NCBI GenBank assembly: GCA_002049455.2
Contig: KV918867.1
Span: 124,001-188,000, forward strand
Origin: Porphyra umbilicalis
Lineage: Eukaryota > Rhodophyta > Bangiophyceae > Bangiales > Bangiaceae
DNA length: 64,000 nt
Direction of reading: 5' to 3'
This document shows, one piece after another, positions 10,146-64,000 of the stretch. The notes beneath the pieces are model-generated. The model searched no databases. It was not told where the DNA came from and worked only from the letters and a program-made list of their open reading frames with translations. Position 1 is the first letter of the stretch; each line of letters begins with the position of its first letter. Position numbers and translations under genes: made by a program.

Positions 10146-10329
10146 ATGGACGTCCGCTGCGGCGTGCGCTACTGGCACGAGGCGATGCCGACGCGGCTCC
10201 CCCCCCCCCCCCCCCCCCGCGGGGGCCAGTGCGGTCCCCCGCCGCGCGCGTCGCACCCCCCCCCCCCCCCCCCCCCCGCCCCCCCGTCCTCGTCGGCGTC
10301 GAGACGGCGGGCGGCGTGACCGACCGTGG

Positions 10330-10360
<31 letters not shown>

Positions 10361-11559: not shown

Positions 11560-11723
11560 CAGGGGGGGGGGGGGGGGAGGGGGGGGGGGTCCTCCATGCC
11601 ACCCCGTGCCGCCGTGGGTGGGTGGGCGGGCGGGCGGGCGGCGGGAGCGGCGCCGCCCGTCGCCGCCGCCGCCGCCGTCGGTCGACGGTCCGCGCGGCGG
11701 GGAGCGGCGCCCGCGTCTGTCCG

Positions 11724-11765
11724 TTTCAAACATAAAAAAAAAAAGAAGAAAAAGAGCAGAAAAGC
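11724..11765. other. A-rich spacer between convergent candidate genes
   Basis: The only AT-rich stretch of this part of the GC block (AAACATAAAAAAAAAAAGAA and following). It sits between the end of the plus-strand candidate (11559) and the end of the minus-strand candidate, where 3' ends and poly(A) signals would be expected. Confidence 0.45.
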
Positions 11766-11769
11766 CCCT

Positions 11770-11993
11770 CTTGCTTGGTCCCCACCGCCGCGCACCGCCC
11801 TGCCCGCCGGCGCAGCGCCGCCGCGCCGCCGCGCGCAGCCGCCGGCCGGGCGCGTGCGCGGCCGCCGCGGCGGCGGCGGCCGACCCCCCCGCTTGCCGCG
11901 CCGGCGCCCGCGGGGCGGGGCGGGCGGGCGGGCGGGCGGCAGCAGCAGCCGCGGCGCCCCCCCCCCCCCCCGCCGCCGCCGTTACGGGGGTGG

Positions 11994-12030
<37 letters not shown>

Positions 12031-12657
12031 CGGCGCACCCCCCCACCCCCCTCCCCCCCCCTCCCGCCGCGCCGCCGCCCGCGCCGCCCGCCGCGCCGCC
12101 GCCATCCGCCCCATATCCTCCGCCACGGCCGCGCGGTCGCGGGTGGCGACCGGCGCGGCGCCGCCGACGGGCTCCACCCGCACGGCGCGGCCGCCGAGGA
12201 GGCACGACCGCGGGCCGCCGCCGCCGTCGGCGGCGGGCGCGGCCGCCCAGAGGCCCCACGGTGGGGGTGGGGGGGGGGGGGGGGGGGGGCCGCCGCCCAC
12301 CCCGCCCCGTCGGCGGCGGGTGCGGGGGCGGGGGCGGCGGGGGCGGCGGGTGCGGCGGCGGCGGGGGCGGCGGTGGGCGCGTCGGCGGCCGCCGCCGACG
12401 CGGCCACGTCGGCCGCCGCACCCGCCGCTGCCGCGCGCGGGGCGGCGTCGTCCCCCGACGAGGCGCCGTCGTCGTCGGAATCGGCCGACGGCGACGGGGA
12501 GGCGTAGGCGGTGCCCGCCGTCACGCCGAGGGCGGTGAGCACCGCGGGCGTAACCGCCGCCGCCCCCGCCGCGCCCGCCGACGAGGCGGCGGCGGCAAAG
12601 GCCGCCGCACCGCCCCAGGCGGCACCGGCGGGTGGGGGGGGGCGCGACCGCGCGCCC

Positions 12658-12698
<41 letters not shown>

Positions 12699-12755
12699 CG
12701 TTGCGCCGCCGCGTGGGCGTTTGGGGGCGGGCGCGCCGGCGGGGGGCGGGGTGGG

Positions 12756-12790
<35 letters not shown>

Positions 12791-13634
12791 CGGGGGGCGT
12801 CCCCCCCCCGTCCCCCGCCCGCCGCCGCCGCCGCCGCCCCGGCGGCGCCTCGGCAGCAGGCCCCGCGCGGCGGCGGCGGGCGGCGGCGGGGCCGGCGGGG
12901 GCGGCGGCGGGGGCGGCACCCCCCCCCCCCCGCCGTCGTCGTCGGGCGGCGGGCGCCCGCCGGGCGGCGGCGCGCGCGCCGGGGTGGATTTGCGGCGGCA
13001 CCGGGGGGGGGCGGCGGCGGCGGCGGTGGTGGCGGCGGTGGCGGTGGTGGCGCCGCCGCCGCCGCCGCCGCCGCGGGCGCGCCCGCCCGCCGCCGGGCGC
13101 CCGTCGGGCGGGCGCCGCCGCGCCGCGTCCGCCGCCACCGCCGCCGCACGCAGCGGGCGGGTGCGGGTGCGGGGGGGGGACGCGCGCGTGGGGGGGGACG
13201 ACGCCGCCGCCGCCGCCAGGGGCGACCGTGGCGCCAGTGGCGGCGGCGACGGCGCCGTCGGCGGCGGCGGCGGTGGCAGCGGTGCCGGTGCCGCCGCCGC
13301 CGCCGACGCTCGCATCGGTGCCACCGCGCCGGGTGGGGGTGGCGCCGCCACCGCCGCCGCCGCCAACGGCGCCGCCGCCGCGTCGACGGCGGCCGGCGGC
13401 GACACGCGTCGCGGCAGCGGCCGCGGCGGTGCGTCGGGCGGCGGCGGCGGCGGCGGCGGCGCGTCGGGTGCCGCGACGGCGGCGGCGGCGGCGGCGGCGG
13501 CGACGGCGGCGGCCCCGCCGCGCGCCGCGGCGACGCGCGCCGCGGGGGGCGGCGCGGGGGGCGGCGCCACGGGCGCCTCGGCCGACGCGGCAGCGCCCGC
13601 CGGCGGCGGCGGCGGCGGCGGCTCGGTCGGCGGC

Positions 13635-13674
<40 letters not shown>

Positions 13675-13968
13675 GGCGCGCCGGCAACGACGCGGCGGGG
13701 GCGGCGGCGGCGGCGGCCCCCCCCCCCCCCCCCCAAAACCCAAACGCGCCACCCGCGGCGCGCCCGCCCGCGCCGCCACCCCCGGCCGCCGCGGCGGCGG
13801 CGCCACGACGCGCGCCGATGGGGCGGGGGGGGGGGGCCCACCCCGGCGGCGGCGCCACCCCACCCCGGCGGGCGGCGGGGGGCGCCCCCCCGGTCGGGGC
13901 GGGGGCCCCACCCCACGCCGCCGGCGGGGGTGCCGCCGGGGGTGCCGGCCCCCGCGAGGCGCCCCCGC

Positions 13969-14012
<44 letters not shown>

Positions 14013-14573
14013 GCCGCTGCCGCCGCTGCCGCCGCTGCCGCCGCCGGCGACGCTGCCGGCTCAATGACAACGTCGAGCAGCGCCGCGCCGCCGCCGCCGC
14101 CGCCGCCGCACCCCCCCCGCCGCCCCCCGCCGCGACGGGCCGCAGGCGCACGGCGGTGAGGTCAAAGCCGAGCGCCCGCGCGGCCCGCCGCCACCCGTCG
14201 GCGGCGACGAGGAGGGCGGTGTAGGCGGACCGCCCGGGGGGGGGGGGGGGGGGCGCTGGCCATGGGGGGGGGGGGGAGGGGGGGGGGGGGCACGCCGCGC
14301 GGGCAGACGCGCCGTGGGGGGGGGACGCGCCGGGGGGGGGGACGCGCCGGGGGGGGGTGGGGGGGGGGCGCCCGTCGCGCGCGCCGCGCGCGCGCGCGTC
14401 GGCGCGGTGGGCCACCCACGAAAAGCGGGGCGGCGGCGCCGCGGCGCGCCGTCGGGGGGGGCGGCGGTCGCAACCGACACGGGCGTGGGCACGAGGGCAC
14501 GCGCGCGGGGCGCAAACGGCCGCGGCCGCGGCCGGCGGCACGGCACGCACACGCGGCGGCGGGCAATTGGCAT
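11770..14573 (-). CDS. Putative GC-rich gene of unknown function, frames broken at homopolymers
   Basis: Stretches of plausible protein occur in order on the minus strand, in shifting frames. An ATG at 14573 begins a basic, Arg/Pro/Ala-rich leader that could be a targeting peptide (an alternative ATG is at 14667). Around 14160-14250 there is AYTALLVAADGWRRAARALG followed by FDLTAVRLRP. Around 12400-12530 there is an acidic stretch with SPSADSDDDGASSGDD, and around 12080-12190 a segment with AVRVEPVGGAAPVATRDRAA. Between them lie poly-Ala, poly-Gly and poly-Pro translations of GCC/GGC repeats. I do not recognise a family. The 3' end is undefined. It may be a real gene with mis-sized homopolymers, a pseudogene, or partly chance coding. 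Confidence 0.28.
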
Positions 14574-14968
14574 GGCATGCAAGTACAGTACGGCACCATT
14601 CCGCCTCGATGCGCGCCTGCGGTGGGAGGAGCAACGTGGCATGCAACTGAGAGTGGCGGGCGGCCATCGCTGTCCCCGCCCAGCGGGGCGCCGCGGACGC
14701 CGAGCCCCCCGTGCCCGGCGCGCCGGGCCGCCGCCGTGGGGGCAGACACCCCCGCGGCGGCGGCCTGCGGCGGCCGCGGCCGCCCCCGGTGCCACTCTTG
14801 ACCCGCCCGCCCCCAACGTCGTGCCCGCCCCGCCCTCTGCCCGCCCCCCGCGCGGACGGTGAGCGTGGTCGGTTGCCCCCCGCCCGCCGTGCCCGCCCGC
14901 CCCCGCGGGGTGCCGCCCCCCCCGCCGCCCCCCGCGGTGGGTGCGCGGCGGCGGCGGCGGCAGTGGCA

Positions 14969-15000
<32 letters not shown>

Positions 15001-15240
15001 CATGATTTCCGCCCTCTTTGGCTGCGCCTTTTGTGCGACGGCCGTGTACCTCACCCTCCACTCGGTGCCGGTGCGGCGTCGGTCGGCCGCCGCCGCCGCC
15101 GCGTTTGCCGCCGCCGCCGCCGCCGCGGGCGCGTACGACCGCTACACGGACGCGCGGGTGGTGGCGGCGCGCGCCGCGTGGGCGCGGGGGGGGGGGGGGC
15201 ACCCCCGGCTGGGCGCCACCCCCGTCGCGGGACGTGGCGT

Positions 15241-15271
<31 letters not shown>

Positions 15272-15579
15272 GGCACCGTCGCGCACGCTGCAGGCGGCGG
15301 CAGACGGTGGGGGTGGGGGTGGTGGCGGTGGCGGCGGCGGCGGCGGCACCGTGTGGGCCCAACGCACGGTGGCGGTGCCACGCGCGGTCGCCCACCCCCC
15401 GGCGGGGGTTGCCACCCTCACCTGGGCGGGCGTCACGGGGTGGGGTCCCCCCCCGCTGCGCGTCGCCCCCGTCGACGCCCTCGTCGCCGGCATCCTCCCC
15501 GAGGTGGGGGATCTCAAGGCGGGCGTCGTGCACGTGTATGTGCTCCAAGGGTCGGCGGCGCTGTTGGTGGCGGGCCGCA

Positions 15580-15611
<32 letters not shown>

Positions 15612-15698
15612 GCGGCGGCCGCACCGTCGCTGCTCGGCTGGGCCGCCCGCCTGCTCGGCGGCGGCGACGGGGGGGCCACCGCCGCCGCTGCCGCCGAC

Positions 15699-15735
<37 letters not shown>

Positions 15736-15917
15736 GGTGCGGGGGGCTCGGTGCGGGGGGGGGGGGGGGCGGCCGGGGGGGGGTGAGCGTCCCCATTGTC
15801 GACGGGCGCCTGGCGCTCGGCGCCGGCCGGCGGCTGTGGTTGGCGAGCGGCGGCGCGCGGGGGGCCCCCGCCGACACGACGCGGCTCGTCGTGACGCTGC
15901 ACGGGGAGCGGTGGTGA
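15001..15917 (+). CDS. Unknown protein with N-terminal hydrophobic segment, one frame break
   Basis: The ATG at 15001 starts MISALFGCAFCATAVYLTLH, a hydrophobic segment suited to a signal anchor. It is followed by an Ala-rich helix and AYDRYTDARVVAARAAW. The frame breaks at the G run around 15185-15197. A neighbouring frame then continues with Gly-rich spacers and ordinary-looking protein such as LPEVGDLKAGVVHVYVLQGS and VVTLHGERW, stopping at 15915-15917. I do not recognise the family. The gene is transcribed away from the minus-strand candidate at 14573, about 0.4 kb apart, which suggests a shared promoter region. Confidence 0.4.
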
Positions 15918-16587
15918 GCGCGGGGTGGCCCGCCGCGGGCGGCGCGTGGTGGGTGGCGTGAGGCCGACGCGCGGTGCCCGCCGTCGGGGTCAACGGTCAC
16001 GGGCGGTGGGGCGGTGGGGCGGCGGTGGGCGCCCTGTGGCGGGCGCCCGTTGCCCGCGGCCGACCGTGGGGGCGTGCCGGTGCTGGCGGCACGTGGCTGT
16101 TGGCGGCCGTCGAGCCAGTGTGCCAGCGGCCGGCCCGCGCCCGCCGGTGGGGGGCTGCCGCGCGGCGGCGGCCGGTTGCACGGCTGGCCGCGTCGGCGTG
16201 CGTCTGCGGTTGCGGTGCGGGGCGCTACCGGCGCGGGGGGGGCTGTGTGGGCCCTTGGGAGGGGTGGCCACCGTCGTCCCGCGGTCTTGCCATGCCTCGG
16301 GTCGTCTGCGGCGGCGGTGGCATGGCCACCCGCTCGCCTCGTGGCGGCCGTGGCGGCCGTGGCGCCCTGCACTGTGGCCGCTGGGTGGCTTTTGTTCGAC
16401 GTCCGCCGCGTCGGCTCGAGCGCGGCGGGTGTGGCGGAGTGGGGGAGCTGGCCTCTGCGCGGAGCGTCCACGGGGCACCAGGCGTGCAAACCAAAGGTTT
16501 GGGGAGGTGCGGCTCGTTGAGGGGGAAGCAGGGTTGGGGAATGGCTTGTTATCGGCACGGCCGCAAGCTTTTGCTACACAGCGTTCG

Positions 16588-49584: not shown

Positions 49585-52500
49585 CAGTGCGTCTCCATTC
49601 ATATCCCACCCTCCTGAGACAGATGTCGTTTCCATTCTGCACTGGCAATATGAGATTGGCACGATTGACCCACAATATTGACGTTGACCCACCGATCAAG
49701 TCCGGCAATCGGCCGCCAGACTCTTGCATGATCGGCAGGCGTAACCCGAGCGTTGCCATGCGTGAGCATTCCGCCGACTCCACCGACACTGCCCTTTCCC
49801 CATCCGCCCCCTCAGCGGCGGTAGCGGGACGTTGCCGACGCGCCTGATCGACTGTCGCCCATACGCGTGGCGCTGGGTTGGGCGGTCGAGGGGGGGGGAG
49901 CTCCTACCCGCACCCCCCCCCCCCCCCCCGCCCCCGCCGCCGCTAACGCCAGTCATCCCCCCTTTCCCGCCGCCAACGCCCGCCATCCCCCGCCCCCCCT
50001 CATACTTCCTGTGCACCGTCTCTACCCTGGCACGCGGATCGCTTCCTCCCTTCTCCTCTACACCTCCCTCCCAGCTATCCCCATGAACCGCGCGACGGTG
50101 GCCGTCGCTATTTCCCCGCTGTTGGTGCGCCGCTTGGCACCTCCCCCCACTGCTGTGCGCTCATCTGGCGGGCGTCGCGTAGGCGCTGTTCGCCAACGGT
50201 GGCATCCACGAGCGCTTCCTACCGGTGGCAATTTCTCAACAACGGTGCAAGGGGCGGTGCTGCTCGGAGGGCGGGGGAGGTGACGGGAGACTAGCGGACA
50301 AGGGCGCAGGCGGCGAGGACGTGCAGCAGTGGACCGGAATGGCGTTCTCGTCGGAGGGCGACGCTATTCTGTGGGGAATCACAAAGTGTTGTCGAGGAGC
50401 CATCGGCAGTGTGGCGCGTGAGTGCGGTGGGGGGTGGTGGAGGATTGAGCGGGCGTGTTGGAGGGTTGTGCGTACGGGGTGTGTCCATACGGGATAGTTT
50501 TTTCTTTCGATTTGTGGCATCATGCCCATGATGCACGCACAGCGATCCTGCTTGAAAAGACGTTCACGGGTGGGAAAGGGGTTGGGGGGTGCTGCCAAGG
50601 TGCATTCATAAGGGGGACAATGTGCCTGCCGAAGAGGATGGACGCCAAGGGTCAGATGCAAAGAAGTGAAATTCTCACCACTTAAGTCAGCACAATCAAA
50701 CACGAGGGCTTCAACTACGAGTCGGCACTATCGGCCACGTCTGCACCCGCGGCATTCATATCCTACACAACGGCATCCACTGCGCCGACAACACCAGCAG
50801 GGCGCTCTTCAATATTCATCTACTCCTCCACCACGGCCCGCTGGGCCACGTCGTCCAGCCCCGCCAGGGCCTCGCTGCCCAGCGACGTGCCCTGCATGAG
50901 CTCCAGCATAACATTGACGTCGTCGGACACCGATCGGATCGTCCGGCGGTACTCGCCGTGGAGGCGGAGCAGGTCCACCGTGCGGATGGCGCCGAGCACG
51001 TCCGTATTGGCCCAGCAATGCGCAATGGCAGACGACGACAGCTCCTCCCACGCGTCCTTGATTATGATGGCAACGTCCATCAGGTCTGCCGCCCCGCCGG
51101 CGACCAGGCCTTCCCCCCAGCCGGCGGGGCGGCCGTGCGGCCGCGCCACGACGCGGGCACGCTCTTGGTCTCCCAGCGCCTGTACGTACTCGTCTGGCGG
51201 GATGACAAACGAAGTCCCACCGTACGCGGTCGCGGGGGGGGGGCGTGCAGCCACGATGATGACGTCGGCGGATGCAGGCACGACCGCTGCCGGCGCGAGG
51301 TCCGCCACAATGATGGTGTCGGCGGCCGTAAGGGCGGCTGCGGCCCATGCGGAGACGGCTGCGGCCGACGCGGGGCCGGCAACGATAATGGCGTCGTTGA
51401 ATGCGGGGAGCGCCTCGGCCGACGCGGGGGCGGCCCAGGACGATGCGGGGGCGGCCACGACCGATGCGGGGACGGGGGCGGCACCCCCACCGGCTTCCAT
51501 GGCGCCACCCTGGACAGCAGCCAGCGCGCCGCGTCGAGGGGCTGCCCCGGCGTTTCCTCCTGCGGGGGCAACTGCTCGAGGGGGTCCAGTGGGGAACACT
51601 TCGTCGTTCGCCCTCGACACCACGTCACCGAGGGCGGTTACAGTGCGCACGAGAAAGCGGCGCCGGTAACCGCGCTTGACAGCAGCAGTAATGCCCGCAT
51701 CCATTGGCGGGGCCTTGCCGTGGAATTGGGGGGAAGAAAGATGGTTTCCACTTGAGGATGACCCACCTCGCACCCGTGGGAGGACGCGTTGTCCATGATC
51801 AAGGTGACCCGGCGGGGGCGCTCTGCCACGGTCCCCGGCACGAAGACCCTGTGAAGCCACTGCTGGAAGCGAGTGTTGTCCATCCAGGCGTTCGACTGGT
51901 CGAAGTAGGGGACGGGGGGGGTACGTCCAGTTCCTGGAAAGTACAGTGGGGCGTTCGACTTCCCGATGATGGCGATCGGTAGCTTCTCTGTCCCAGCTGC
52001 GTTGGTGCAGCAAACCAGCGTCACGCGGTCCTTCGAATTCATGAACTTGAGCCCGCGCGCCTCACGGCGCGCCCCGGCGGACACGTTCGACTGCGAGGGC
52101 AAGCAGCGGAAGAAAAGGCCCGTCTCATCCATGTTGAAGATGTCCTCCGCGCTGTACGCCTCCAGCCGCTTCCGCACCACCTCCATGCCGCGCTCCACCG
52201 CCTCCCTGTCCACCGCGCCGCCTTGGCCGTGCATCCTCACGGATTTAATGCCAGTGCGTGACAAAAAGCCGCGTAAATAGCTTCGGCTGGCGCGAAAGTC
52301 GTCCAGCTTCAGAGCCCGCCCAATCTTAACCGCCTTGGCCTGCAAAAGCGCGAAAGAAATGGGCACCGTCTTCTGGTCCAACTGCTCGATGGCCGCCAGC
52401 CACTCCCGCAGGCGGTCTTCAACGCCTGCGAAGTGCCCCTTGCACATGACCGTCCGCATCTCGGTCGCGTCGTCATTGGGCATCGCGAGCCATTTGTTCC

Positions 52501-53132
52501 GCGCCCTGTACACCTTGCGTGCCGCCTCCTTGGAGATCCCCGTTGGAAGCGCGGCCAGCACCGACGACCACGTGCGCCCCTGCGAGCGCAAGCGGCAGAT
52601 CTGCTTCTTGACCGCGATGGTGATGGGCACGCGCTCCTTTCGCGGCTTGTTGGTGATCAACGTCGAGTCATCCGACGCCGGGGGTACAGCCACCGCGCCA
52701 AGCTCGGCGCGGCTCTCACTCGCGGAAAGGATGGCCTCCCCCGCAGCCGTAGCCGCCACCGTAGCGCGGGCTACTGCCTCGCCGTGGGAGGAGAGGGAAG
52801 CCATGGGGCAGTCCAAAAGTGCGCCAGTATCGGACGGGGCGGGGCAAAGGGGGAGGGGGGTTTGGGGGGGAGGGAGGGGGGGGAGTCGAGTGGTCGGGCG
52901 ACATCAGTGCGGCCGAAGACGGCGGCGATGACCGCGATGGTCGCCAGCGACGGCGGCGGTGCGCCCATTTATGGACCCAGAAATATTATCTCCATAGGGC
53001 CACTGACGATCGACTGCGCTTCACTCGCTGTCATTCAGAACAGTCGATCGCAAGAGATGTATCGATCGTTCAATTTCTCGTCCGTATCCCACCGGGTTAG
53101 CATCCGGGCGGGATATGAATGGAGACGCACTG
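49585..53132 (-). mobile_element. Pogo/Tigger-like DNA transposon, complete ends, 3.5 kb
   Basis: Terminal inverted repeats of 23 bp begin CAGTGCGTCTCCATTCATAT and are flanked by TA on both sides (49583-49584 and 53133-53134). CAGT... ends plus TA duplication plus a CENP-B/DDE_1 transposase are the pogo signature. About 1.2 kb of non-coding sequence, with a C run at 49912-49929, lies between the left end and the transposase stop. The transposase has at least one frameshift, so this copy is probably inactive. Confidence 0.94.
50820..52804 (-). pseudogene. Pogo/Tigger-like DDE transposase, one frameshift
   Basis: The start is the ATG at 52804 (MASLSSHGEAVARA). In order: an N-terminal HTH (VKKQICRLRSQGRTWSSVLA), a CENP-B-type HTH (about 52270-52400; FALLQAKAVKIGRALKLDDF ... 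SYLRGFLSRTGI), and a DDE_1 core with Asp in FNMDETGLFFRCLP (about 52120) and VTLIMDNASSHG (about 51795). The next motif, FLPPNSTA, is the last in that frame. The third catalytic Asp (PPMDAGITAAVKRGYRRR, about 51705) and all downstream sequence lie in a second frame that ends at 50820, so there is a one-base break at about 51720. The C-terminal part carries a long Ala/Pro/Val-rich linker and then the conserved IIIKDAWEELSSSAIAHCWA segment. Confidence 0.93.
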
Positions 53133-53917
53133 TACGTTCGACCAGGACGGAGAGCCTTGCACGAAATCGCTCTCTCAGGGGCAATCCGCATGGATTGTTC
53201 GGCTACTTCTGAACCAAGCGGCCCTGGAGGCCTCGGCCATTGAATGCCTCAAGCTCCGTTCGGCACAGCACAAAAGAATCTGAGACTTCTGAAGTAAAGC
53301 GCCACATTTAATCTCACATGGTAGCGCCCTCGCGTTGCTTCTTTCTCGGGCGGTGTGCTGGACGTACATCGTATTGGGCACTCCCCGTGTCCAGGCCGCA
53401 CATGGTGCTCGGCTCGCGCTCTGTTTACTTGTTTCCCCCCCCCCTCCCCCCCCCCCTCCACATTCTCCGTCGCCATGTCTTCCTCCCGCTTTCTCACACC
53501 CCCAGCACATGGATGGAACGACGACAAATTTCCAGCTGAGGAACTCGGCTGCACTGGTCCCGAAGGTGAAAATTGGAGCACTGCCCAGTGCTTTTCAAAC
53601 ATGCGGAGAAAAGTTTGAAGCATCAAGTCAAATATGGATAAATATGGGATCTCAAATGTACTATGTGATTTCAATTGAACTCGTCGGTAAAAGTGGCCCC
53701 CCAAAGAGGTTGCATTTGTTGCTGTTTTGTCGTCGCCGTCGACGTGGCCCGTGTCCCACCCGTACAGTACCGTCCATCTTCCCACTGTTCCGTCATCCTT
53801 CCCTTCTCCCCCGCGTCTCGTTCGAGTCATCCTGTGTGGACAGTATCACCACACCACCACCACCACCTGCATTTTTTATTTTTGATCTCTTCTGTTCCGT
53901 TCCGCGGTCGCTCCACG
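53133..53917. other. Upstream region of the LLPH-like gene
   Basis: No supported gene. It contains a C-rich tract (53430-53460) and a CCACCACCACCACCACC microsatellite (53849-53866) close to the start codon, presumably part of the 5' leader. A minus-strand open frame at 53249-53830 has no recognisable domain. Confidence 0.55.
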
Positions 53918-54601
53918 ATGGGCAAGTCCCTCCGGTCCAAGGTCAAAAAGACCTACCGCGGCCTCCGGCGGCAGGTGCTCGAACCGGCCGCGTCGTCCAA
54001 GACGCTCGCGCTCGCGGCGCCGCTCTACTCTGCGGCAGGCCTGCCGCTGCCCGACCCCACCACGTCCGGCCTCGGCACCGGCTCGGGTGGCAACCGCGCT
54101 GCATGGACGCACGGCGGCTTTGTGCCGCTCACGTCGTTTGTGCCGACGCCCCCCGGCGTGCGTCTCAACCGCGTGCACGGGCCGTTGGCCGAGGCGGACG
54201 TGGCGCTGGCGGCGGAGCGAAAGGAGACGCCACCGCGGCAGGATTTTGTTGGGGAGCGGGAGGAGCCGGCGGTGGTGGCTAAGGACCTGCCCCTCAAGCT
54301 GCCGATGCTCTTTGAGGGCGCCGCGGGTGGGCCGGCGGGCGCGCCCCCGCTCGGCACCCTGTCCATGACGGGCGTGGCGGCCGCAGAGGCCTCGGCTGGG
54401 GCGGCGGCGCGGGACGCGGGCCACGACCAGGAACCGGGGGACGTGGCCATGGCGGGCGCGGGCGTGTCGCCGTCGGGCGTGCGCGGCAACCGGAGGAGAG
54501 ACCCGAGGCGCCCTCGAGCTGGGGGGGTGAAGAAGGGCTCCAAATCCGCAAAGAGCCGCCACTCGCGCAACAAGGCGGCTAAGCGGCACCGCGTCAAGTA
54601 G
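53918..54601 (+). CDS. LLPH/DUF2423-like nuclear protein
   Basis: 227 residues. The N-terminus MGKSLRSKVKKTYRGLRRQV matches the conserved start of the DUF2423 family (animal LLPH, yeast YBL028C: M.KSLRSK.K...R..KR). The C-terminus is strongly basic (KKGSKSAKSRHSRNKAAKRH), a nuclear/nucleolar localisation type. The middle, about 150 residues, is a low-complexity Ala/Gly/Pro linker that includes LPLKLPMLFEG. Known members are small nucleolar proteins linked to large-subunit ribosome biogenesis; this one is longer because of the linker. The assignment rests on the two ends. The ATG at 53918 is the only start that gives the family N-terminus. It is convergent with the CHD gene. Confidence 0.7.
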   Translation: MGKSLRSKVKKTYRGLRRQVLEPAASSKTLALAAPLYSAAGLPLPDPTTSGLGTGSGGNRAAWTHGGFVPLTSFVPTPPGVRLNRVHGPLAEADVALAAERKETPPRQDFVGEREEPAVVAKDLPLKLPMLFEGAAGGPAGAPPLGTLSMTGVAAAEASAGAAARDAGHDQEPGDVAMAGAGVSPSGVRGNRRRDPRRPRAGGVKKGSKSAKSRHSRNKAAKRHRVK

Positions 54602-55036: not shown

Positions 55037-58000
55037 CTACGACGCATCGTCTGACTCATCGTCGCTTGACGGTGGTGGAGACGCCGACGCGTAGCCGTTG
55101 CCGGGCACAGACGCACGGCGGCGATTTCCCTCGGATGTCGCCAACGGGTCCCCACTGGCCGACCCTCGCCTTAGGTCCGCGGCTGGTGGGACGGGTGCTG
55201 CCGGGTCGCCCGACACAGCATCCACCGGCGCCGCGTGTGGTGACGCGGCCGTTTCGCGCTTGCGCTTACTGCTCGGCCCCCCACCACCAGTTAGGCGCCG
55301 CTTGGGCGGCGTCGCCGCCCCTGGACGCGCGTCCACGTCCATGGGTGTGCCACCCGAATCAGCACCGTGGCCTGACGCAGCGGCGACAGCTGCTGCTGCT
55401 GAGGTTCCCGGTGCGCGGCGGAAGACACGAGGCACGAAGCCAACGCACTTGTCCACATTTGGAAGCCCCTGAAGCAGCTCCTGCACGATCACATGCGCAA
55501 AGCCAAAGTACTCGGGCCCCGACACGTTGACCCGCTGGCGCCACCGCGGCTCGGGCATCCGCTCCCGGATGCCGACCATGACTTGGCCCCACGCGGCGGA
55601 CGGGCTCTCGCCGAGGAAAGTGAACACATCCGGGTCGTCCGAGCAGGACACACGAAACTTGGGCGTCACATCACCATCGTCCACCACCTCACACACATAG
55701 TTGCACTGCGTGTCGGGGTTCACCAGGGACAGGTAGCACCGAAGAGAGCGGTACCCAATTGGGTACAGAGTCCTCTCGGTGTGGAAGCCCGGGCGCTCGT
55801 ACTCAATGACACCTAGGTTTTCCACCGTGAGGACACCGAGCTGCAGCGGCATCCGCGGGCTGCCGTCGCCGTTGCGCTGGACGCGATGGAGTAGCGATTG
55901 CCTGGGCTCGTTGAGCGCACGCGGGGCCTTGCCGAGCAACGCCCCGTTGCCGTGAAGCCCACGACTGCCGATGGAGGGGGCATGGCGGGGAGCGCCCTTG
56001 TCGGGTCGCGCAGTCGGTGGTGCCAACGCATGCGACAAAGAAGCTGCTGCGTGCCGTGAGCGAGCCTCGGCGACGACTCGTTGCTGCGGCGGTTGCTGAT
56101 GATGCTGCTGTTGCTGCCGCACCTGCTGCAAGTACTCCCCGTCCTGTTGCTGCTGCAGAAGCTGCTGCTGCTGCGCCTCCCGGCTCCACTTGTCCATCTG
56201 CCGAACGGGGGCCAACGGGTGCGAGGAAGATGGCCCTGCATGTCGCGAGCGAGCCTCGGCGATGCTCCGTTGTTCCTGCTGCTCCTGTAAATGCTGCTGG
56301 TGTAGCTGCTGCTGCTGCTGCTCTCGAGTCGCCTTGTCCATCCCCAGAGGCACCCGCCGCTCGCTCGCACCCCCGGGCTCCCCCTCCTGCGCAAGAGCCG
56401 ACGGCCCCAGGAGCTGGCGGGGAAGCTGGCGCGTCAAAGGTCGTGGTTGCTGCGATTCACGATGCAGCTGCTGACGACCTTGCTCTGATTGCAGGTGGTC
56501 GCGCTGCTGCTGCTGCTGCTGTTGGTACTGATGCTGCTGGTGCTCCAGACGAGCGCCTCGCGCACCGCGAGACGGCTGCAAAGCAGCCTGTTGCGCCGTC
56601 AAAGAGCCGTGGAAAGACGTATCGGCCGATCCCCGCCCGAAGTTGCCGTCAAAAGGGGGACCGGGCCCAGCCTGGGAGCCTGGCGGCGGTTGACCAAAGG
56701 CTCCGTCAGGTGGGTGCGCTCGGTACTGCGCGCCATCATGGCCATGGTGCGGCGGCGGTAGGGGCGCCTGTATCAGCGGCTGCTGCTGCTGTTGTGCATT
56801 GAACTGCTCCTGCTGCTCCTGCTGCTCCTGATCTTGACGATGTCGCTGCCGCTGCCGTGCACGAGGCTGCGGTTGCCCTGAAAGGGGCACATCACCGCCA
56901 CCATGCGGCGCTGACGAGTCGACACCCCCGTCGACGGGACTGATGAGATTGCCATGCAAGTCCACAACAGACACGTACCCACTGGTCGGAGCGTCAAACG
57001 CGTACTGCCGCTTGTCCCAGTCCGGCAGCACCACTGGGTAGTAGTTGTTCGCCGGTGTCCGCTTGTACGCCTTGAGGGTCTCCAGCAGGCGAGGCGTCAG
57101 CAGATTGAAGTCAAAAACCTCGAAACACGCGACAGGGACTGCCAGAGGCGGGCGTGGGGAAAGACGCTCTTGCCTTGGCGGCGGCCCCTGGTCGTGCGCC
57201 TGTACGTCACCCAGCATCACCGGGGCCGCCGCACTTGACTTCCGGGCCGTCGCCGTCCGCCGGGTGCGCTCCCCGGTGTGAGCGGCGACGCCATGCGGGT
57301 CTCGAGGGAACGGCGGCGCCGCCACGCGTGCAGTACGCACAGCGCCTGCGTGGGAGATGCCAGCGCTGATGCCGTGCGGTGCCATGGACTTGCGCTTGAG
57401 TTTGCGCGAGGCCCGGCGTAGAGCGGCAGCATCCGCCTCAGCCACGTCGGCGACCGGCGCTTGGGGGGGAGCGGGAGGGGCTTCGACGGCCGACACCTTG
57501 GCCGGAATCGAACGGCGCTGGGCAGGTACCCGGGTCGGTGGAGGTGGCGGAGGGCGGTCCGGAATAAGCAGCACCTGGTTGAGCGCTTGTACACGAGAGA
57601 AGATGGCGCGCTCTCGCGGGAAAAAGTTGAGAATGTCCCCCTCCTTGAGGTCCGCCGCCGTCGACGGGGGCGTGGGCATCGAGTACGGCAACGCCGGGTC
57701 GGCCTCCGCAGGCGTATTGGCATAGTAGGCCAGCGCAGAAGTGATGGCCCGGGCCCGCAGTGGCGCGATGCGCATCAATTCGGTGATGTCAAACCCGTGG
57801 CGGGCCACTCCTCGCAGCAAGAGCGCGTCATGGCCGGCTACGTCTTCGACCCACCACGTGGGCATACCATCGCTGGACAATGCGGCAGAGCAGCGGCGGA
57901 GGCGGGCCGAGCCATCAGGCCGCACAAGCGAGGCAATCACCTTGTGCCGCAGCACGTACAGCTCGTGGCTGCGCTCACGCAGCCGCCGCGCCGTCGGCAG

Positions 58001-61000
58001 TACCACGCGGGCGTCCTCCAGCTCTTGCGCCGAGAACTCGCCGAAGTCGCTCTTATACGGGTAGTCGGCGATGAGCGACGCGTGCGTGATGGCCCAGTCC
58101 TCAATGTCCACCACCTGAAGGCACATACGCACGAAGCGCTGCGTGTAGGCCGCCAACGAGTCGGGTCCTTTTCGCCCGAGGCCCGTCAGACGCTGCAGCT
58201 CCACATACGACGGTGCGCCAGCGTCGTCCAGCGGGACGCCCCCCACAATGGAGAAGAACTTGGCAAAGTCGGTGCGCTCTTTCTTCGACCACACCATGTT
58301 GGCTTCCGCCATGCGCTGCTCCCGCCGAGACCGAGCCGCCTCCTTCTCCGCCTCCTTCGCTTGTTTGCGCTCCTCCTTAGCAGCCCGCACTTGCTCTGCA
58401 GCCACTTCAGCCCACAACTTGCGCGCCTCCTTCTTGCGGCGGCGCATGTAGGCCCGAACTAACTTCTTAACACGTACGTTAAGCACGTTGACAGAGGGCC
58501 AGGTCCGGCTCTGCAGCTCCTCAATCGAAATACAGTCCGCCGCTGAGACGGGCGCCCCAGAAAGCGACAAAACAACACCGTTGCCACCCATGGCGGGCTG
58601 CTCCACCTCCATCTTGGCCCCAGGGAGAGGGGGAGTCTTCGGATCAGGCGTCGCCGACATGGGCGCCTTCCCCGAGTCCGGCTTCCCGGCGCTAGCAACA
58701 ACAGGTTTGATGTCAACCGGCAACGGCGATGGGCGCACAACAGCCGCCACAGCCTCACCCGCCAACATCACCGCCGCCGTCGTCGTCGCAGTCGCTGCTG
58801 TCGATGCAGCCGCTGAAGGGTCCTTGTCCTCAGGCGCGGCGGTCTCGACAACCACATTGGTGGGGTCCGCCGCATTGTCGAGCGACGGATCTAGGGTCTC
58901 CTCCATCACCTGTCGCTCGGTAGCATCGTCGCCGTCCTCCACCAGCACATCCGAAACGGGCTCACTCCTGCCCAAAAAGACCAACTCGGGGTCGAGGCGC
59001 AACAGGCGGTGACACCCGTACCCATGCTTGACGGTACCACGCAGGAGGTCCCGGTCGAAGCGGTCCTCCCACCAGGGCCCGATCAGTTGCGAGCCGCTGG
59101 CCCCAATCGTCGGCACCGGCTGGTCGTCTCTCAGACTCCCTTCATGGTACAGCTCGTACAGCTCCCGCAGCATCTGCAACCGGTCCAACATCGTCCCACA
59201 GTTGCGCTCCAGGTACTGCAGGTAGTCGGGCGACTCCAGGACCGGCTCCTGTTCTAGCGCTTCAGCGTCGGTCTCGACCACCTCTCCGAGCAGGTTGCCA
59301 TACATGTCCGTCTCCCCATGCGGTGGGGCCAGCGTGGCTGCCGCAGTCGACGGCTGCGGTGGAGCGGTATGAGCCGCACCCGTCGAAGCGGCTGGCGTGT
59401 TTACTACCGCTCCCGCATCGGCGCCAGGGTCATGCTTAGCAGGCGTCGCCGCCGGAGTGACGCCTTCAATTGCACCGTCCAAGGCAGCGCTGGCAACCGG
59501 TCCTAGCGAATTCGGAGCGGTCGCAAAAGCCGCTTCTGGGGACAGCACCTCCCGGTGCGGAGCCGCCACCTCATTCAAGAAGGGGCACCGCTGCTGCAGG
59601 TCCGCCAAGACGGTCTCCCCACTCTGGGCCACCTTGATCACAGCCCGAAGGATGATTCGCACGTAGCGCGCCGTGTCGTCCACGCTCCGACGGCGGGAGA
59701 TGCAGGCCACCTGGCGGATGGCCGCCCAGCGGCCCCATCCAAACGTCATGATAGCGCGCTGTAATCGGTGACGCTCACTCTTGGTCAGTAGCCGACGGCC
59801 GGCCGGCGCTCCGTCGGGCGAAGGCGGCTCAGCAAAGTCGGCCGCTGTCGGCGCAAACGCCTCATCCTCCGACGGCAGCTCCTCCATTTCAGACGCGCTC
59901 GATTCCTCCTGGCCAGGAGCGTACCGCTGGGTCGGCCGCCGCCGGCGAGGCAGCGGGTCCAGACTCTCCCCACTCTTGCCGTGGATCTGCGGCATGATCT
60001 TCTTCCAAAAGTCAGGGTCGTCGAGCCGGATGGCCTCCTCCCCAGCAGGGACGGCCTCGGCTGCAAAGGAGGCCTTGGAGAAGGCGGATGGCGCTTGCGT
60101 GCCCGTGTTCTCGACAATGCGCTGCGTCCGCCGCTCCAGGATGAGGTCGATGTCCTCGTTGGTGAACGCATCGGCTGCGGAGTCGTCCTCGTTGAAGACA
60201 TCGTAGGCACCCTTTTTGAGCAGCGCGTCGACGTCGTTGCGAGACAGGTCAGTGAAAGTGTTGCCGGTCTTGCCGGCCCCCGAGCCGCCAGTGCTGCGGA
60301 GGCCACCCAGGTTCCCAATGGCGTCACCCTTGCCCATATCCTGTAGCACCGCCTGATCAAGGCCAAGCTTCTTGGACGCCCGGTCAAACATATCTTGCTC
60401 GTAGGTCGCCCGTGTGATGAGGCGAAACACCTTCACGTCCTTCTGCTGGCCAATGCGGTGGCACCGCGCCTGCGCCTGCACGTCGTTTTGCGGGTTCCAA
60501 TCCGAGTCGTAGATGATGACCGTGTCCGCAATAGTCAGGTTGATGCCCTGCCCGCCCGCCCGCGTGCACAGCAGGAAGACAAACTTCTCCGACTCGGGCT
60601 TGGAGAACCGGTCGATGGCCTGCTGCCGCTCATTTCCACGTACCCGCCCGTCAATGCGCTCGTAGCCCCACCGATGGGCAATCAGGTAGTCCTCCAAAAT
60701 GTCCAGTACTCGCACCATCTGCGAGAAGATGAGCACCCGGTGGCCAGCGGCCTTGAGGCGCGGCAACATCTTGTCGACGAACACCAGCTTGCCCGACGCG
60801 TCGACCAGCACCTGCGCCATGAGGTCCTCTGCAGAGGCTGGGGTCGCCACCACCTTGTCCGCTGAGACATCAGCGGCAGCCGCTTTGGCCTCTTTGCTCT
60901 TTTTGTCCGCCTTGACGGCCGCCTCAAGCTCGATGGGCTCGACGCCCTGAATGAGGAAAGGGTGATTGCAGCACTTGCGCAGTTCCATGACAATGTTGCG

Positions 61001-64000
61001 CAGGTTGCCGATGTTGGCCGGCCGTGCGCCCATGTCAAGGAATGAGAAGTTCTTCTCCAACAGAGCCCGGTACCACTTCTTCTGCACGCGCGTCAGCTCG
61101 ACCATTACAATTGTCTCCTCTTTGGGAGGGATACTCTTCTCCACGTCCTCCTTCTTCCGACGCAGCAGGTACGGCCGCAATACTTCCTTGACGGCGTTGA
61201 CCGCGGCGACGTTCATGTTGCCAAAGCGGCTCGCAAAATCGTCCTCAGATGCAAACGCGTCCGGGTCGACAAAGTTGAGCAGCGCCCACACCTCGAGCAG
61301 GTTGTTTTGTAACGGCGTGCCCGTCAGCAGCACTCGATGGTCGCTGCTGAAGGACTTGAGCTCGTCGACCAGGCGGGACGACCGGTTCTTGAGTCGATGA
61401 GCCTCGTCGACGACAATGGCATTCCACTTGATGCGCCGCAGACGGGACGCCTCCTGTAGCACCGTCTCGTAAGTGGTGATGAGCACCTGCCACTTGTACG
61501 GGGGGCCCTGCGAGGGCACCTGTCCGGGCACCACCCACTCGTGCTGGTGGATGACGTTGCGGCTCTCGGAGTTGCCGTGGTAAACAATAGCGTTGAGCTC
61601 CGTCCAGGTATCAATCTCCCGCGCCCAATGGCCGAGCGTCGACAGCGGAGCGAGCACCAAAAACGGACCGCGGATGTTCTGCTCTTCGAACAGGAAGTGC
61701 AGCAGCGAAACGGACTGAATGGTCTTGCCGAGCCCCATCTCGTCCGCTAGGATACAGCCGCGGCGCTGGAACCAGCACGAGACCAGCCAGTTATGGCCTT
61801 CAACCTGATAGGGCCGCAGAACGCCGTCATTCTTGAATGACGGCTGCTCTCGCGGCACAAACGCGTCACGTGATGGACGCGGCAGCGGCTGCACATCGGA
61901 CGCGCTCAGGCGCTTGTTGCGCTGCTGGAACTCAGACACTTTGGCGTCATCTTGCACATCCTCCGCGGCCTCCCACGTGGACTCGCCATAGGAGAGCGCC
62001 GCCCACTTGATGAGGTACTTGCGCTTGCCGGCGCGAGTGCTCTTCTCCGCCAGGATCCGGTCGACCGTGATGAAACCTTCCGGGATGAGCTCGTCGTCCA
62101 CGTCAGCTTCGTCCCGCCGCATAGCCGCGGTCGCCTCTTTGCGGAGGAAGCGCTGAAGCCGGGACTTGCCTTGCGACTGCGCGAGAATGATGGCCTCCAC
62201 GACCCATTCGCAGTGGATGTAGGAGAGACCCTTCCATTTGACCAGGTACTCGCTGACCACATCCTCACCAGCGGCTTCGGCTTCGGCGAGTGCCATACTC
62301 ACGCCCGCCTTGCCGCTGGCCGCCAGGCGCGAGCTTGTGGCCTTCATCGCCGACGGTGATATTGCGTTTGCCGCCCCTGCCACCGCCGGCTCCTTGCCCG
62401 GCCCGTCGGCGTCCGCCACCTTAGCATTGCCATCTGCGAGAGCGGCAGGGCCCGCCACGGCCTTGTCGCCAGCGATGGCCGTGGCCTCACCGTCCGCGGC
62501 GGCACCTGCAGCCTCGTTCTCAGCAGCGGCGCCCGAAGCATTCTCCCCAGCCACGGCGGCGGCAGCAGTCAGTTGAGCGACGCGCCGGGCCAAGATCTTT
62601 TCCATCACCGGCACGGGCTCCTCATCATCGCTGGCACCGGACGCGGCGCCACTGCCACCCGCTTGCGCCCCCGCCGCATTATCCTCGTCGCCAAAAATGT
62701 CACCAAGGTCAGCGCCAAGCGACTCGCGTGCGCCACCGTCTTCGCTGAGTGACGACAGCCGGGACTTGCGCGTGCGCTGCGACACCCGCGACGGCGCTGG
62801 GGGCGTCGAGCGGCTGCCCCGCCCGCGACCGCGGCCGCGGGCGCTAGCGGTTCCGCCTCTACCACGGGAGCGCCCCCGTACAGATGCAGAACCGCGGCGC
62901 CGTGTGGACGGCGGTTCATCCTCCTCATCGTCGTCCTCTCCGTCACCGGCCGAGTCGACCAAGCTCGCCGCTCGGCGACGGGTCGCCGCAGGCGTAGCTT
63001 TGGACGCCGCGGCGCGCCGCTTGGTCGCAGTCGACGCCCGCGAACGGCGAGACGGCGATGGGGACACGGCGAGTGTCTCTGCCTCCGACTCGGATTCCGA
63101 TGACTCCTCCGTGTCGACGAGCGAAGATGGCACCGTCGAGGCGGCCGCGTCACTGATGGCGGGCGACGGGCGGCGGCGCAACTCGAGCCCGTGCTTGCGA
63201 ATGTCTTCGCTCGCATCCCGCCGCACGCTCGGAGTCCGCCGCGTCGCTGGTGGCCGTGGCGGCCTCCCTCCACGGCCCACCGCGGTCAGGCCAGCGGGCT
63301 CCTCCTCGTCATCGCTGTCCCCACCCTCCACCACAGGAACGTGAGGTGTGCCAGACCCCTCTGCCGCACTCTCACTCCCAGTGTCGCCGCCGCCGCCCGC
63401 GCGCTTAGCTCGTGCCGCGCGGGAGCGGCGGGTGCGACTGACAGGACGCGGAGCATCGCTGCCGTCGCCACTGTTGTCACCGCCGACACCTTTGCCCTGA
63501 GCCGCGCTCGGTGCATGTCGCGCGCGGGACCGGGCGGCGGAGGCGGCGGCACGGGTGACTGTTGGCGGGCGCCGGGCGGGGAGCGGCTCATCACTACCAT
63601 CACCATCGTCCAGGTCCTCGCTGTCGACCTCGTCATCTGCAGCACTAGCCAGCCCAGCTGTCGCCACGTCCGAGCCGACCTGGTCCGCATCGTTCGCATC
63701 CTCCACATCCTCCGCGTCGTCCGCATCCTCCGCGTCGTCCGCATCCTCCGCGTCGTCCGCATCCTCCGCGTCGTCTGCATCCTCCATGTCCTCCCCATTG
63801 TCGCCGCCTGACTCGTCGTCCCCATCAGCCAGCTCCCTCATCGCCGCCGGAGGGACCTCTCCGGGTGAGGACGAGCCGCCCAGGCCGCTGTCGTCTTCGG
63901 TACCGCTGTGCTCGGCTGCAGCTAAGGCGGCGAGGCGGCTGCGTTTGGCCGGCGGCAAAACGTCATCCTCATCCTCATCGGTATCGTTGAGGCCGGCGGC
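55037..64000 (-). CDS. CHD-type chromatin remodelling ATPase (CHD7/8/9-like) with FYR domain, 5' partial
   Basis: One open frame of about 2,985 codons that stays open to the window edge, so the start lies outside. Order from the N-terminus: acidic Asp/Glu/Ala repeats (63690-63790); long disordered Ser/Arg/Ala part; two chromodomains (about 62140-62265, EYLVKWKGLSYIHCEWV; about 61955-62060, YLIKWAALSYGESTWE); SNF2 ATPase with ADEMGLGKT (about 61730), VVDEAHRLKN (about 61400) and C-terminal helicase motifs (LLCTRAGGQGINLT, ARCHRIGQQKDVKVF, about 60445-60580). Then come the CHD7-group blocks LLKKGAYDVFNEDD, LILERRTQRIV and LDDPDFWKK (59990-60220), a SANT-like segment (59650-59790), Gln-rich tracts (56100-56870), and an FYRN/FYRC module (55466-55852). 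The product would slide nucleosomes in the nucleus. All catalytic motifs look intact. The FYR module is the odd part. Confidence 0.95.
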   Translation of the reverse strand, partial: AAGLNDTDEDEDDVLPPAKRSRLAALAAAEHSGTEDDSGLGGSSSPGEVPPAAMRELADGDDESGGDNGEDMEDADDAEDADDAEDADDAEDADDAEDVEDANDADQVGSDVATAGLASAADDEVDSEDLDDGDGSDEPLPARRPPTVTRAAASAARSRARHAPSAAQGKGVGGDNSGDGSDAPRPVSRTRRSRAARAKRAGGGGDTGSESAAEGSGTPHVPVVEGGDSDDEEEPAGLTAVGRGGRPPRPPATRRTPSVRRDASEDIRKHGLELRRRPSPAISDAAASTVPSSLVDTEESSESESEAETLAVSPSPSRRSRASTATKRRAAASKATPAATRRRAASLVDSAGDGEDDDEEDEPPSTRRRGSASVRGRSRGRGGTASARGRGRGRGSRSTPPAPSRVSQRTRKSRLSSLSEDGGARESLGADLGDIFGDEDNAAGAQAGGSGAASGASDDEEPVPVMEKILARRVAQLTAAAAVAGENASGAAAENEAAGAAADGEATAIAGDKAVAGPAALADGNAKVADADGPGKEPAVAGAANAISPSAMKATSSRLAASGKAGVSMALAEAEAAGEDVVSEYLVKWKGLSYIHCEWVVEAIILAQSQGKSRLQRFLRKEATAAMRRDEADVDDELIPEGFITVDRILAEKSTRAGKRKYLIKWAALSYGESTWEAAEDVQDDAKVSEFQQRNKRLSASDVQPLPRPSRDAFVPREQPSFKNDGVLRPYQVEGHNWLVSCWFQRRGCILADEMGLGKTIQSVSLLHFLFEEQNIRGPFLVLAPLSTLGHWAREIDTWTELNAIVYHGNSESRNVIHQHEWVVPGQVPSQGPPYKWQVLITTYETVLQEASRLRRIKWNAIVVDEAHRLKNRSSRLVDELKSFSSDHRVLLTGTPLQNNLLEVWALLNFVDPDAFASEDDFASRFGNMNVAAVNAVKEVLRPYLLRRKKEDVEKSIPPKEETIVMVELTRVQKKWYRALLEKNFSFLDMGARPANIGNLRNIVMELRKCCNHPFLIQGVEPIELEAAVKADKKSKEAKAAAADVSADKVVATPASAEDLMAQVLVDASGKLVFVDKMLPRLKAAGHRVLIFSQMVRVLDILEDYLIAHRWGYERIDGRVRGNERQQAIDRFSKPESEKFVFLLCTRAGGQGINLTIADTVIIYDSDWNPQNDVQAQARCHRIGQQKDVKVFRLITRATYEQDMFDRASKKLGLDQAVLQDMGKGDAIGNLGGLRSTGGSGAGKTGNTFTDLSRNDVDALLKKGAYDVFNEDDSAADAFTNEDIDLILERRTQRIVENTGTQAPSAFSKASFAAEAVPAGEEAIRLDDPDFWKKIMPQIHGKSGESLDPLPRRRRPTQRYAPGQEESSASEMEELPSEDEAFAPTAADFAEPPSPDGAPAGRRLLTKSERHRLQRAIMTFGWGRWAAIRQVACISRRRSVDDTARYVRIILRAVIKVAQSGETVLADLQQRCPFLNEVAAPHREVLSPEAAFATAPNSLGPVASAALDGAIEGVTPAATPAKHDPGADAGAVVNTPAASTGAAHTAPPQPSTAAATLAPPHGETDMYGNLLGEVVETDAEALEQEPVLESPDYLQYLERNCGTMLDRLQMLRELYELYHEGSLRDDQPVPTIGASGSQLIGPWWEDRFDRDLLRGTVKHGYGCHRLLRLDPELVFLGRSEPVSDVLVEDGDDATERQVMEETLDPSLDNAADPTNVVVETAAPEDKDPSAAASTAATATTTAAVMLAGEAVAAVVRPSPLPVDIKPVVASAGKPDSGKAPMSATPDPKTPPLPGAKMEVEQPAMGGNGVVLSLSGAPVSAADCISIEELQSRTWPSVNVLNVRVKKLVRAYMRRRKKEARKLWAEVAAEQVRAAKEERKQAKEAEKEAARSRREQRMAEANMVWSKKERTDFAKFFSIVGGVPLDDAGAPSYVELQRLTGLGRKGPDSLAAYTQRFVRMCLQVVDIEDWAITHASLIADYPYKSDFGEFSAQELEDARVVLPTARRLRERSHELYVLRHKVIASLVRPDGSARLRRCSAALSSDGMPTWWVEDVAGHDALLLRGVARHGFDITELMRIAPLRARAITSALAYYANTPAEADPALPYSMPTPPSTAADLKEGDILNFFPRERAIFSRVQALNQVLLIPDRPPPPPPTRVPAQRRSIPAKVSAVEAPPAPPQAPVADVAEADAAALRRASRKLKRKSMAPHGISAGISHAGAVRTARVAAPPFPRDPHGVAAHTGERTRRTATARKSSAAAPVMLGDVQAHDQGPPPRQERLSPRPPLAVPVACFEVFDFNLLTPRLLETLKAYKRTPANNYYPVVLPDWDKRQYAFDAPTSGYVSVVDLHGNLISPVDGGVDSSAPHGGGDVPLSGQPQPRARQRQRHRQDQEQQEQQEQFNAQQQQQPLIQAPLPPPHHGHDGAQYRAHPPDGAFGQPPPGSQAGPGPPFDGNFGRGSADTSFHGSLTAQQAALQPSRGARGARLEHQQHQYQQQQQQQRDHLQSEQGRQQLHRESQQPRPLTRQLPRQLLGPSALAQEGEPGGASERRVPLGMDKATREQQQQQLHQQHLQEQQEQRSIAEARSRHAGPSSSHPLAPVRQMDKWSREAQQQQLLQQQQDGEYLQQVRQQQQHHQQPPQQRVVAEARSRHAAASLSHALAPPTARPDKGAPRHAPSIGSRGLHGNGALLGKAPRALNEPRQSLLHRVQRNGDGSPRMPLQLGVLTVENLGVIEYERPGFHTERTLYPIGYRSLRCYLSLVNPDTQCNYVCEVVDDGDVTPKFRVSCSDDPDVFTFLGESPSAAWGQVMVGIRERMPEPRWRQRVNVSGPEYFGFAHVIVQELLQGLPNVDKCVGFVPRVFRRAPGTSAAAAVAAASGHGADSGGTPMDVDARPGAATPPKRRLTGGGGPSSKRKRETAASPHAAPVDAVSGDPAAPVPPAADLRRGSASGDPLATSEGNRRRASVPGNGYASASPPPSSDDESDDAS
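56100..56870 (-). repeat. CAG/CTG-rich polyglutamine-coding tracts in the CHD gene
   Basis: Repeated CTG/TTG triplets on the plus strand encode several Gln-rich stretches with interspersed Glu, His and Leu. They lie between the CHD core and the FYR module and are probably disordered linker. Confidence 0.9.
63690..63792 (-). repeat. 18-bp tandem repeat coding acidic residues in the CHD gene
   Basis: About five copies of an 18-base unit (CGCGTCGTCCGCATCCTC on the plus strand) encode repeated Glu-Asp-Ala-Asp-Asp-Ala. This kind of array is prone to length change. Confidence 0.9.

Follow-up and report, generated by a model that had tools for sequence, protein, structure and literature searches.

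A predicted CHD-type chromatin remodeller with a C-terminal FYR module in the red alga Porphyra umbilicalis

The function of FYR domains is poorly characterized; they are chiefly known from enzymes that methylate histones and from proteins that assist other remodellers. The locus described here raises the question of what kind of remodeller carries such a module at its C-terminus and what the module might do there. It lies in a 64 000-nucleotide stretch of Porphyra umbilicalis DNA (the window; positions 124001-188000 of contig C107), in which a single minus-strand frame, referred to here as CHD-FYR, had been read as a CHD7/8/9-like protein fused to FYRN and FYRC. The frame (protein P0001) was compared with Pfam by hmmscan, and 14 families matched at E<=1. 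SNF2, Helicase_C, FYRN, Chromo, FYRC, ResIII (E 4.5e-10) and HTH_CHD6-9 scored above the Pfam cut-offs; DEAD, HTH_CHD1_Hrp3, HDA2-3, MIT1 chromo, Myb, AAA_22 and SDH_beta scored below them. The features, from the N-terminus to the C-terminus of the protein, are as follows.

55037..64000, minus strand: CHD-FYR coding sequence, with 6 more bases past the window end to the ATG; a further 5' exon is possible
62321..64000, minus strand: low-complexity N-terminal region, acidic and then R/S/G/A-rich (P0001 residues 1-560; from the sequence)
62171..62281, minus strand: first chromodomain, divergent, containing SYIHCEW (62204-62224); its limits were drawn by eye around a weak match to MIT1 chromo
61919..62068, minus strand: second chromodomain (PF00385, residues 645-694)
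60956..61810, minus strand: SNF2 ATPase lobe 1, with DEMGLGKT (61721-61744) and DEAH (61397-61408) (PF00176, residues 731-1015, E 3.5e-83)
60449..60784, minus strand: Helicase_C lobe 2, with the RCHRIGQ motif at 60446-60466 (PF00271, residues 1073-1184, E 8.6e-24)
59681..59803, minus strand: weak SANT/Myb-like segment (PF00249, E 0.11, below cut-off; boundaries set by eye)
58979..59074, minus strand: SLIDE-like block beginning WWEDRF (PF23588, 24.5 bits, cut-off 27)
58103..58348, minus strand: CHD6-9 tri-helical domain (PF23078, HTH_CHD6-9, residues 1885-1966, 29.5 bits, cut-off 27, E 7.1e-7)
57731..57883, minus strand: second WW block, PTWWVED... (from the sequence; no Pfam match)
56951-57193, minus strand: block of ordered appearance, PVACFEVFDFNLLTP..., lying after the CHD part and before the Q-rich linker (without Pfam match)
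55931..56833, minus strand: Q-rich linker, 67 Q in 301 residues (from the sequence)
55679..55852, minus strand: FYRN (PF05964, residues 2717-2774, E 5.7e-20, 71.1 bits, cut-off 24)
55427..55663, minus strand: FYRC (PF05965, residues 2780-2858, E 1.9e-12, 47.6 bits, cut-off 21)
55040..55426, minus strand: low-complexity C-terminal tail with basic KR-rich stretches (from the sequence)

The predicted combination of a CHD part with a FYR part was thus borne out, with Chromo (E 5.1e-19, two stretches), SNF2, Helicase_C, FYRN and FYRC all above their cut-offs in one frame, and each of the four models with which the original prediction was to be checked (FYRN, FYRC, Chromo and SNF2) gave a significant match. 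When the FYR piece was excised and compared with Pfam by itself, FYRN and FYRC were recovered at E 1.5e-21 and 5.1e-14, respectively. FYRN comes first and is separated from FYRC by 5 residues, and some 600 residues, about 300 of them Q-rich, lie between the last CHD-like block and the FYR module.

The front part of the protein has the arrangement of a CHD remodeller, that is, tandem chromodomains ahead of an SNF2/Helicase_C motor (PF00385 twice, PF00176 and PF00271). The first chromodomain is supported by there being two PF00385 stretches and by a match to PF23615 (residues 574-600, 16.6 bits, below cut-off). The ATPase motifs DEMGLGKT, DEAH, LTGTPLQN and RCHRIGQ are all present. Judged by its sequence, CHD-FYR is a CHD-type remodeller with intact ATPase motifs and a predicted motor.

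Its assignment to a subfamily is less straightforward. The tri-helical model of CHD6-9 was passed narrowly in the Pfam comparison (35.1 bits in the genome search), and the second WW block resembles a post-ATPase block of CHD7/8. No PHD, CHDNT or CHDCT domain of subfamilies I and II was present among the 14 Pfam families at E<=1, and PF23588, the only subfamily I/II model that scored, remained under its cut-off. In animal CHD7-9, C-terminal BRK domains are usual and occur in pairs. BRK was not found in the CHD-FYR frame (Pfam, E<=1), and none of the six BRK matches in the genome was on contig C107; because of this, CHD-FYR was not filed as a canonical CHD7/8/9 protein. None of the best 60 of 104 PDB matches was named CHD6-9, and the post-ATPase segment (residues 1501-2114) gave two PDB matches, both at E 0.64 and to chains named Chromo domain-containing protein 1. 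Thus, the earlier placement in subfamily III holds as far as the CHD6-9 helical model and the lack of any I/II-specific match at cut-off are concerned, but not with regard to BRK. CHD-FYR resembles CHD6-9/Kismet proteins in its tandem chromodomains, SNF2/Helicase_C motor, CHD6-9 tri-helical domain and long low-complexity flanks, and differs from them in having a C-terminal FYR module and no detected BRK.

All contigs of the genome (665 contigs, 83.8 Mb) were then searched in six frames. The six BRK matches, all above cut-off, were paired in three other frames (68.4, 60.3 and 45.3 bits for L081, L082 and L083, respectively; cut-off 23), and two control genomes also matched in this search, below cut-off.

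C521:13650-14693: L081, two BRK domains
C25:60820-61116: L082, two BRK domains
C105:219764-220318: L083, two BRK domains

No other Pfam family was found in these three frames at E<=0.01. In addition, a 976-aa ORF on contig C20 (L078:4687-7617) combined an FHA domain (28.5 bits, cut-off 20.7) with a CHD6-9 tri-helical match (35.7 bits, cut-off 27) and had no chromodomain or ATPase match. On account of the BRK-pair frames and this FHA/tri-helical ORF, parts typical of CHD subfamily III seem to be spread over several proteins in this genome. The fusion further suggests that the subfamily was built in modules early in the history of eukaryotes, with either BRK or FYR attached at the C-terminus.

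The same search returned one FYRN match and one FYRC match, both in CHD-FYR; neither a second FYR gene nor an MLL protein with FYR was found in the 83.8 Mb. A query made of the chromodomains plus ATPase had 39 matches, and CHD-FYR was the only one to span the chromodomains, the other 38 starting at query residue 140 or later, past the second chromodomain. A second CHD with its chromodomains in other exons would escape such a search, whereas the FYR of CHD-FYR is the sole one found in the genome. Its fusion to a remodeller motor suggests that FYR and nucleosome remodelling are functionally tied. Among the titles and abstract starts of the open-licence papers listed, no CHD-FYR fusion was found, and in a viral collection no relative was confirmed for either FYR (2 pattern matches) or the chromo-ATPase part (6 pattern matches).

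To which known FYR module is the algal one closest? A phmmer search of the PDB (E<=10) with the FYR module matched three distinct sequences, the best being TBRG1 (2WZO, 7.9e-26), followed by two KMT2D-bearing chains (1.3e-10). Together with the Pfam values of 5.7e-20 and 1.9e-12, this excludes a chance match. Identities were 52/139 between alga and TBRG1, 37/132 between alga and KMT2D and 38/130 between TBRG1 and KMT2D, and 24 columns were invariant among the three. The algal module thus leans toward TBRG1 over KMT2D, which is a lean and not a classification because the set of solved FYR structures is small; KMT2D may simply evolve fast, in which case a ranking of TBRG1 over MLL from three sequences could mislead. 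The structure of TBRG1 was reportedly described by Garcia-Alai in 2010. A single-sequence AlphaFold model of the algal FYR region was unusable (mean pLDDT 38.5), and the predicted FYR fold is supported through the alignment to 2WZO.

Compared over the FYR part, CHD-FYR has FYRN and FYRC adjoining as in TBRG1/NIAM; TBRG1 is a separate protein, whereas the algal module shares a reading frame with a CHD motor. With the MLL/KMT2 (Trithorax) proteins it has the FYRN and FYRC Pfam families in common, but it lacks a SET domain (none in Pfam at E<=1) and the cleaved stretch between FYRN and FYRC. Since the two stand side by side, they should fold together within the chain as one domain, which is the situation in TBRG1, and would not have the task, known from MLL1/2, of re-joining two cleaved halves.

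Considering these data, we lean, by a modest preference, to the reading that CHD-FYR is a CHD remodeller with a CHD6-9-type post-ATPase region, to which a complete TBRG1-like FYR domain is attached by a long Q-rich tether and serves as an integral accessory or targeting module. The CHD motor would slide nucleosomes, and the FYR module on its flexible tether would contact partners by which the remodeller is positioned or tuned. Within one chain, the module may fill the role that TBRG1 may have next to INO80, and FYRP next to ISWI. In Trypanosoma brucei, FYRP is reported to co-purify with TbISWI, and its knock-down derepressed a silent expression site 26-61-fold (PMC4646403). Like CHD-FYR, it is described there as a FYR-family protein working with a nucleosome remodeller; it differs in being a separate, loosely bound subunit of ISWI instead of CHD, with the lowest score among the four members of the complex and a Pfam match to FYRC only (PMC4646403). 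TBRG1 is reported to co-purify with INO80 in substoichiometric amounts (PMC10954555), and Niam/TBRG1 to pull down INO80 and B-WICH subunits (PMC5557939). As MYST2, ARF and MDM2 are also given as TBRG1 binders in the latter source (PMC5557939), a role with remodellers would not be exclusive. A survey of five model organisms classes FYRN and FYRC as DNA-binding (PMC2993927), which would be a different role from the one favored here.

The fusion hints at a possible direct role of FYR domains in remodelling machines, and it could also be a lineage oddity, as it comes from one genome only. It may in addition help to explain the link between CHD7/8 and MLL3/4 in animals (CHARGE and Kabuki syndromes), a tie that FYR-type contacts may provide. 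A broader proposal, possible but doubtful, is that FYR was at root an accessory of ATP-dependent remodellers (INO80 with TBRG1, ISWI with FYRP and CHD in cis) and not of H3K4 methyltransferases; on such a reading, fusion in the alga would reveal a direct partnership whose members are separate proteins in other lineages, while BRK and the CHD6-9 tri-helical domain are in the same genome also found on separate proteins.

The best-surviving alternative, which we nevertheless consider unlikely, is that the FYR module moved from an MLL/Trithorax protein onto a CHD and docks the remodeller to the COMPASS/Trithorax H3K4-methylation machinery. In the 484-aa ORF of the top SET match of the genome (L005/L079, 92.7 bits), a SET domain but no FYR was detected, as would be compatible with a moved FYR, and this SET domain presumably ends in a SET1/Trx-like post-SET. 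COMPASS parts may exist in the genome, as Dpy-30 had one match above cut-off. Sites and targets common to Kismet and Trr are reported in PMC6547167, which also cites co-immunoprecipitation of CHD7/8 with WDR, ASH2L and RbBP5; an association of CHD8 with WDR5-ASH2L-RbBP5 is cited in PMC10903457. According to the table in PMC2993927, FYRN/FYRC co-occur with PHD and SET, and because that table gives only these two as partners, CHD plus FYR differs from the combinations given there. H3K4me1 is reported as unaltered in kismet mutant clones (PMC6547167). Against a docking to COMPASS stand the greater closeness of the algal FYR to TBRG1 than to KMT2D, and the re-joining of cleaved halves by FYRN/FYRC of MLL2 (PMC8401916), which an adjoining pair does not need. 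An accessory module in cis is favored over an H3K4-methylation module because FYR is nearer to TBRG1 and because TBRG1 is reported with INO80 and FYRP with ISWI. The tie to H3K4-methylation complexes put forward in the original prediction is consequently unsupported as stated.

Could the FYR module be a passenger of an expressed fusion, with no function of its own? Its tethering by low-complexity sequence and its occurrence in one genome only would be in line with this. On the other hand, the 24 columns invariant across alga, TBRG1 and KMT2D and the finding of no other FYR in the genome speak for constraint on the module, and we consider a mere passenger improbable.

All of the above supposes one protein, and so the frame itself was analyzed. 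It is open from 55037 to 64000, in agreement with the earlier claim of a single uninterrupted frame, and when the neighboring genome sequence is added it reaches an ATG that lies 6 bases beyond the window, at coordinate 64006. The coding sequence has 2990 codons including the stop (2989 aa), within a stop-to-stop frame of 3039 aa. An acceptor-like polypyrimidine-AG (CCCCCAG) precedes the ATG at 66 nt and a GTACG at 265 nt; thus the N-terminus is not fixed, and one more 5' exon is plausible. In the 3'-most 720 codons the sole stop is the terminal one, whereas 11.6 +/- 3.4 stops would be expected, and none of 1000 simulated sequences (first-order Markov, same bases) was stop-free. Third-position GC was 0.66-0.85 in all 150-codon steps. 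Codons 2701-2850, nearly the whole FYR module, had GC of 0.67, 0.43 and 0.80 at positions 1, 2 and 3, which is similar to ATPase codons (for example, 0.62, 0.39 and 0.82). Within the low-complexity stretches the coding signature was faint (0.83, 0.51 and 0.67 for codons 2401-2550, for example), and linker codons 2551-2700 were free of stops in the two other same-strand frames too. It should be noted that the openness of the linker alone is for this reason less telling than that of the whole frame, and that the linker is the least secure part of it. Taken as a whole, the frame data support a single coding frame, probably expressed as one protein.

Two neighboring in-frame genes, a CHD ending by splicing before ~57 kb and a TBRG1-like gene beginning within the Q-rich region, would suit the free-standing nature of TBRG1 elsewhere and a boundary least visible just where two further same-strand frames are stop-free (codons 2551-2700), but they would require the join to be open by luck within a frame of 2990 codons with a terminal stop only, of which the 3' part had no stop-free counterpart in the simulations, and we give them little credit. 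An assembly chimera is likewise disfavored by a frame open throughout, which supports the earlier view that it is not an assembly join of two genes.

Several other features were observed in the window. A Tc5/pogo-like transposase ORF occupies 51638-52816 on the minus strand (DDE_1 1.8e-22, HTH_Tnp_Tc5 2.5e-8), and a small plus-strand ORF at 53915-54601, convergent with CHD-FYR, has a weak match to the N-terminal part of the YBL028C ribosome biogenesis factor (E 0.0056, below cut-off). GC content rises up to 0.83-0.91 over about 6 kb at 10001-16000.

Elsewhere in the genome, SET domains were very numerous (85 matches, 100 candidates scored; for example, L009:1477-3318). An ORF could be read by a crude filter in 19 of the 30 SET loci examined, and all 19, L005 included, match each other at E<=1e-10. 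Several SET ORFs have a Cys-rich E(z)-like stretch ahead of SET (L009 preSET_CXC, 21.1 bits, below the cut-off of 23.3). These genes look like an amplified, perhaps mobile, methyltransferase family. JmjC domains gave 105 matches among 112 scored candidates, often within ORFs of 1000-2570 aa, and look like a histone-demethylase-like family that was amplified alongside the SET one. Chromodomains had at least 148 matches (150 of 417 candidates scored), and L080:1611-4895 encodes a Ty3/gypsy-like polyprotein with a reverse transcriptase and an integrase identified by eye and a chromodomain at its end. Finally, in line with a red alga and a genome of this size, 10 of 11 phycobilisome-domain matches were on the plastid-like contig C665 and one was on C128. 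L072, one of these matches, encodes a phycoerythrin beta-like protein: its best PDB match (2.4e-103) is to a chain called bacterial fluorescent protein beta, R-phycoerythrin follows at 1.2e-102, and cryptophyte chains are lower, at 1.6e-92 and below. An alpha-type ORF comes after L072.
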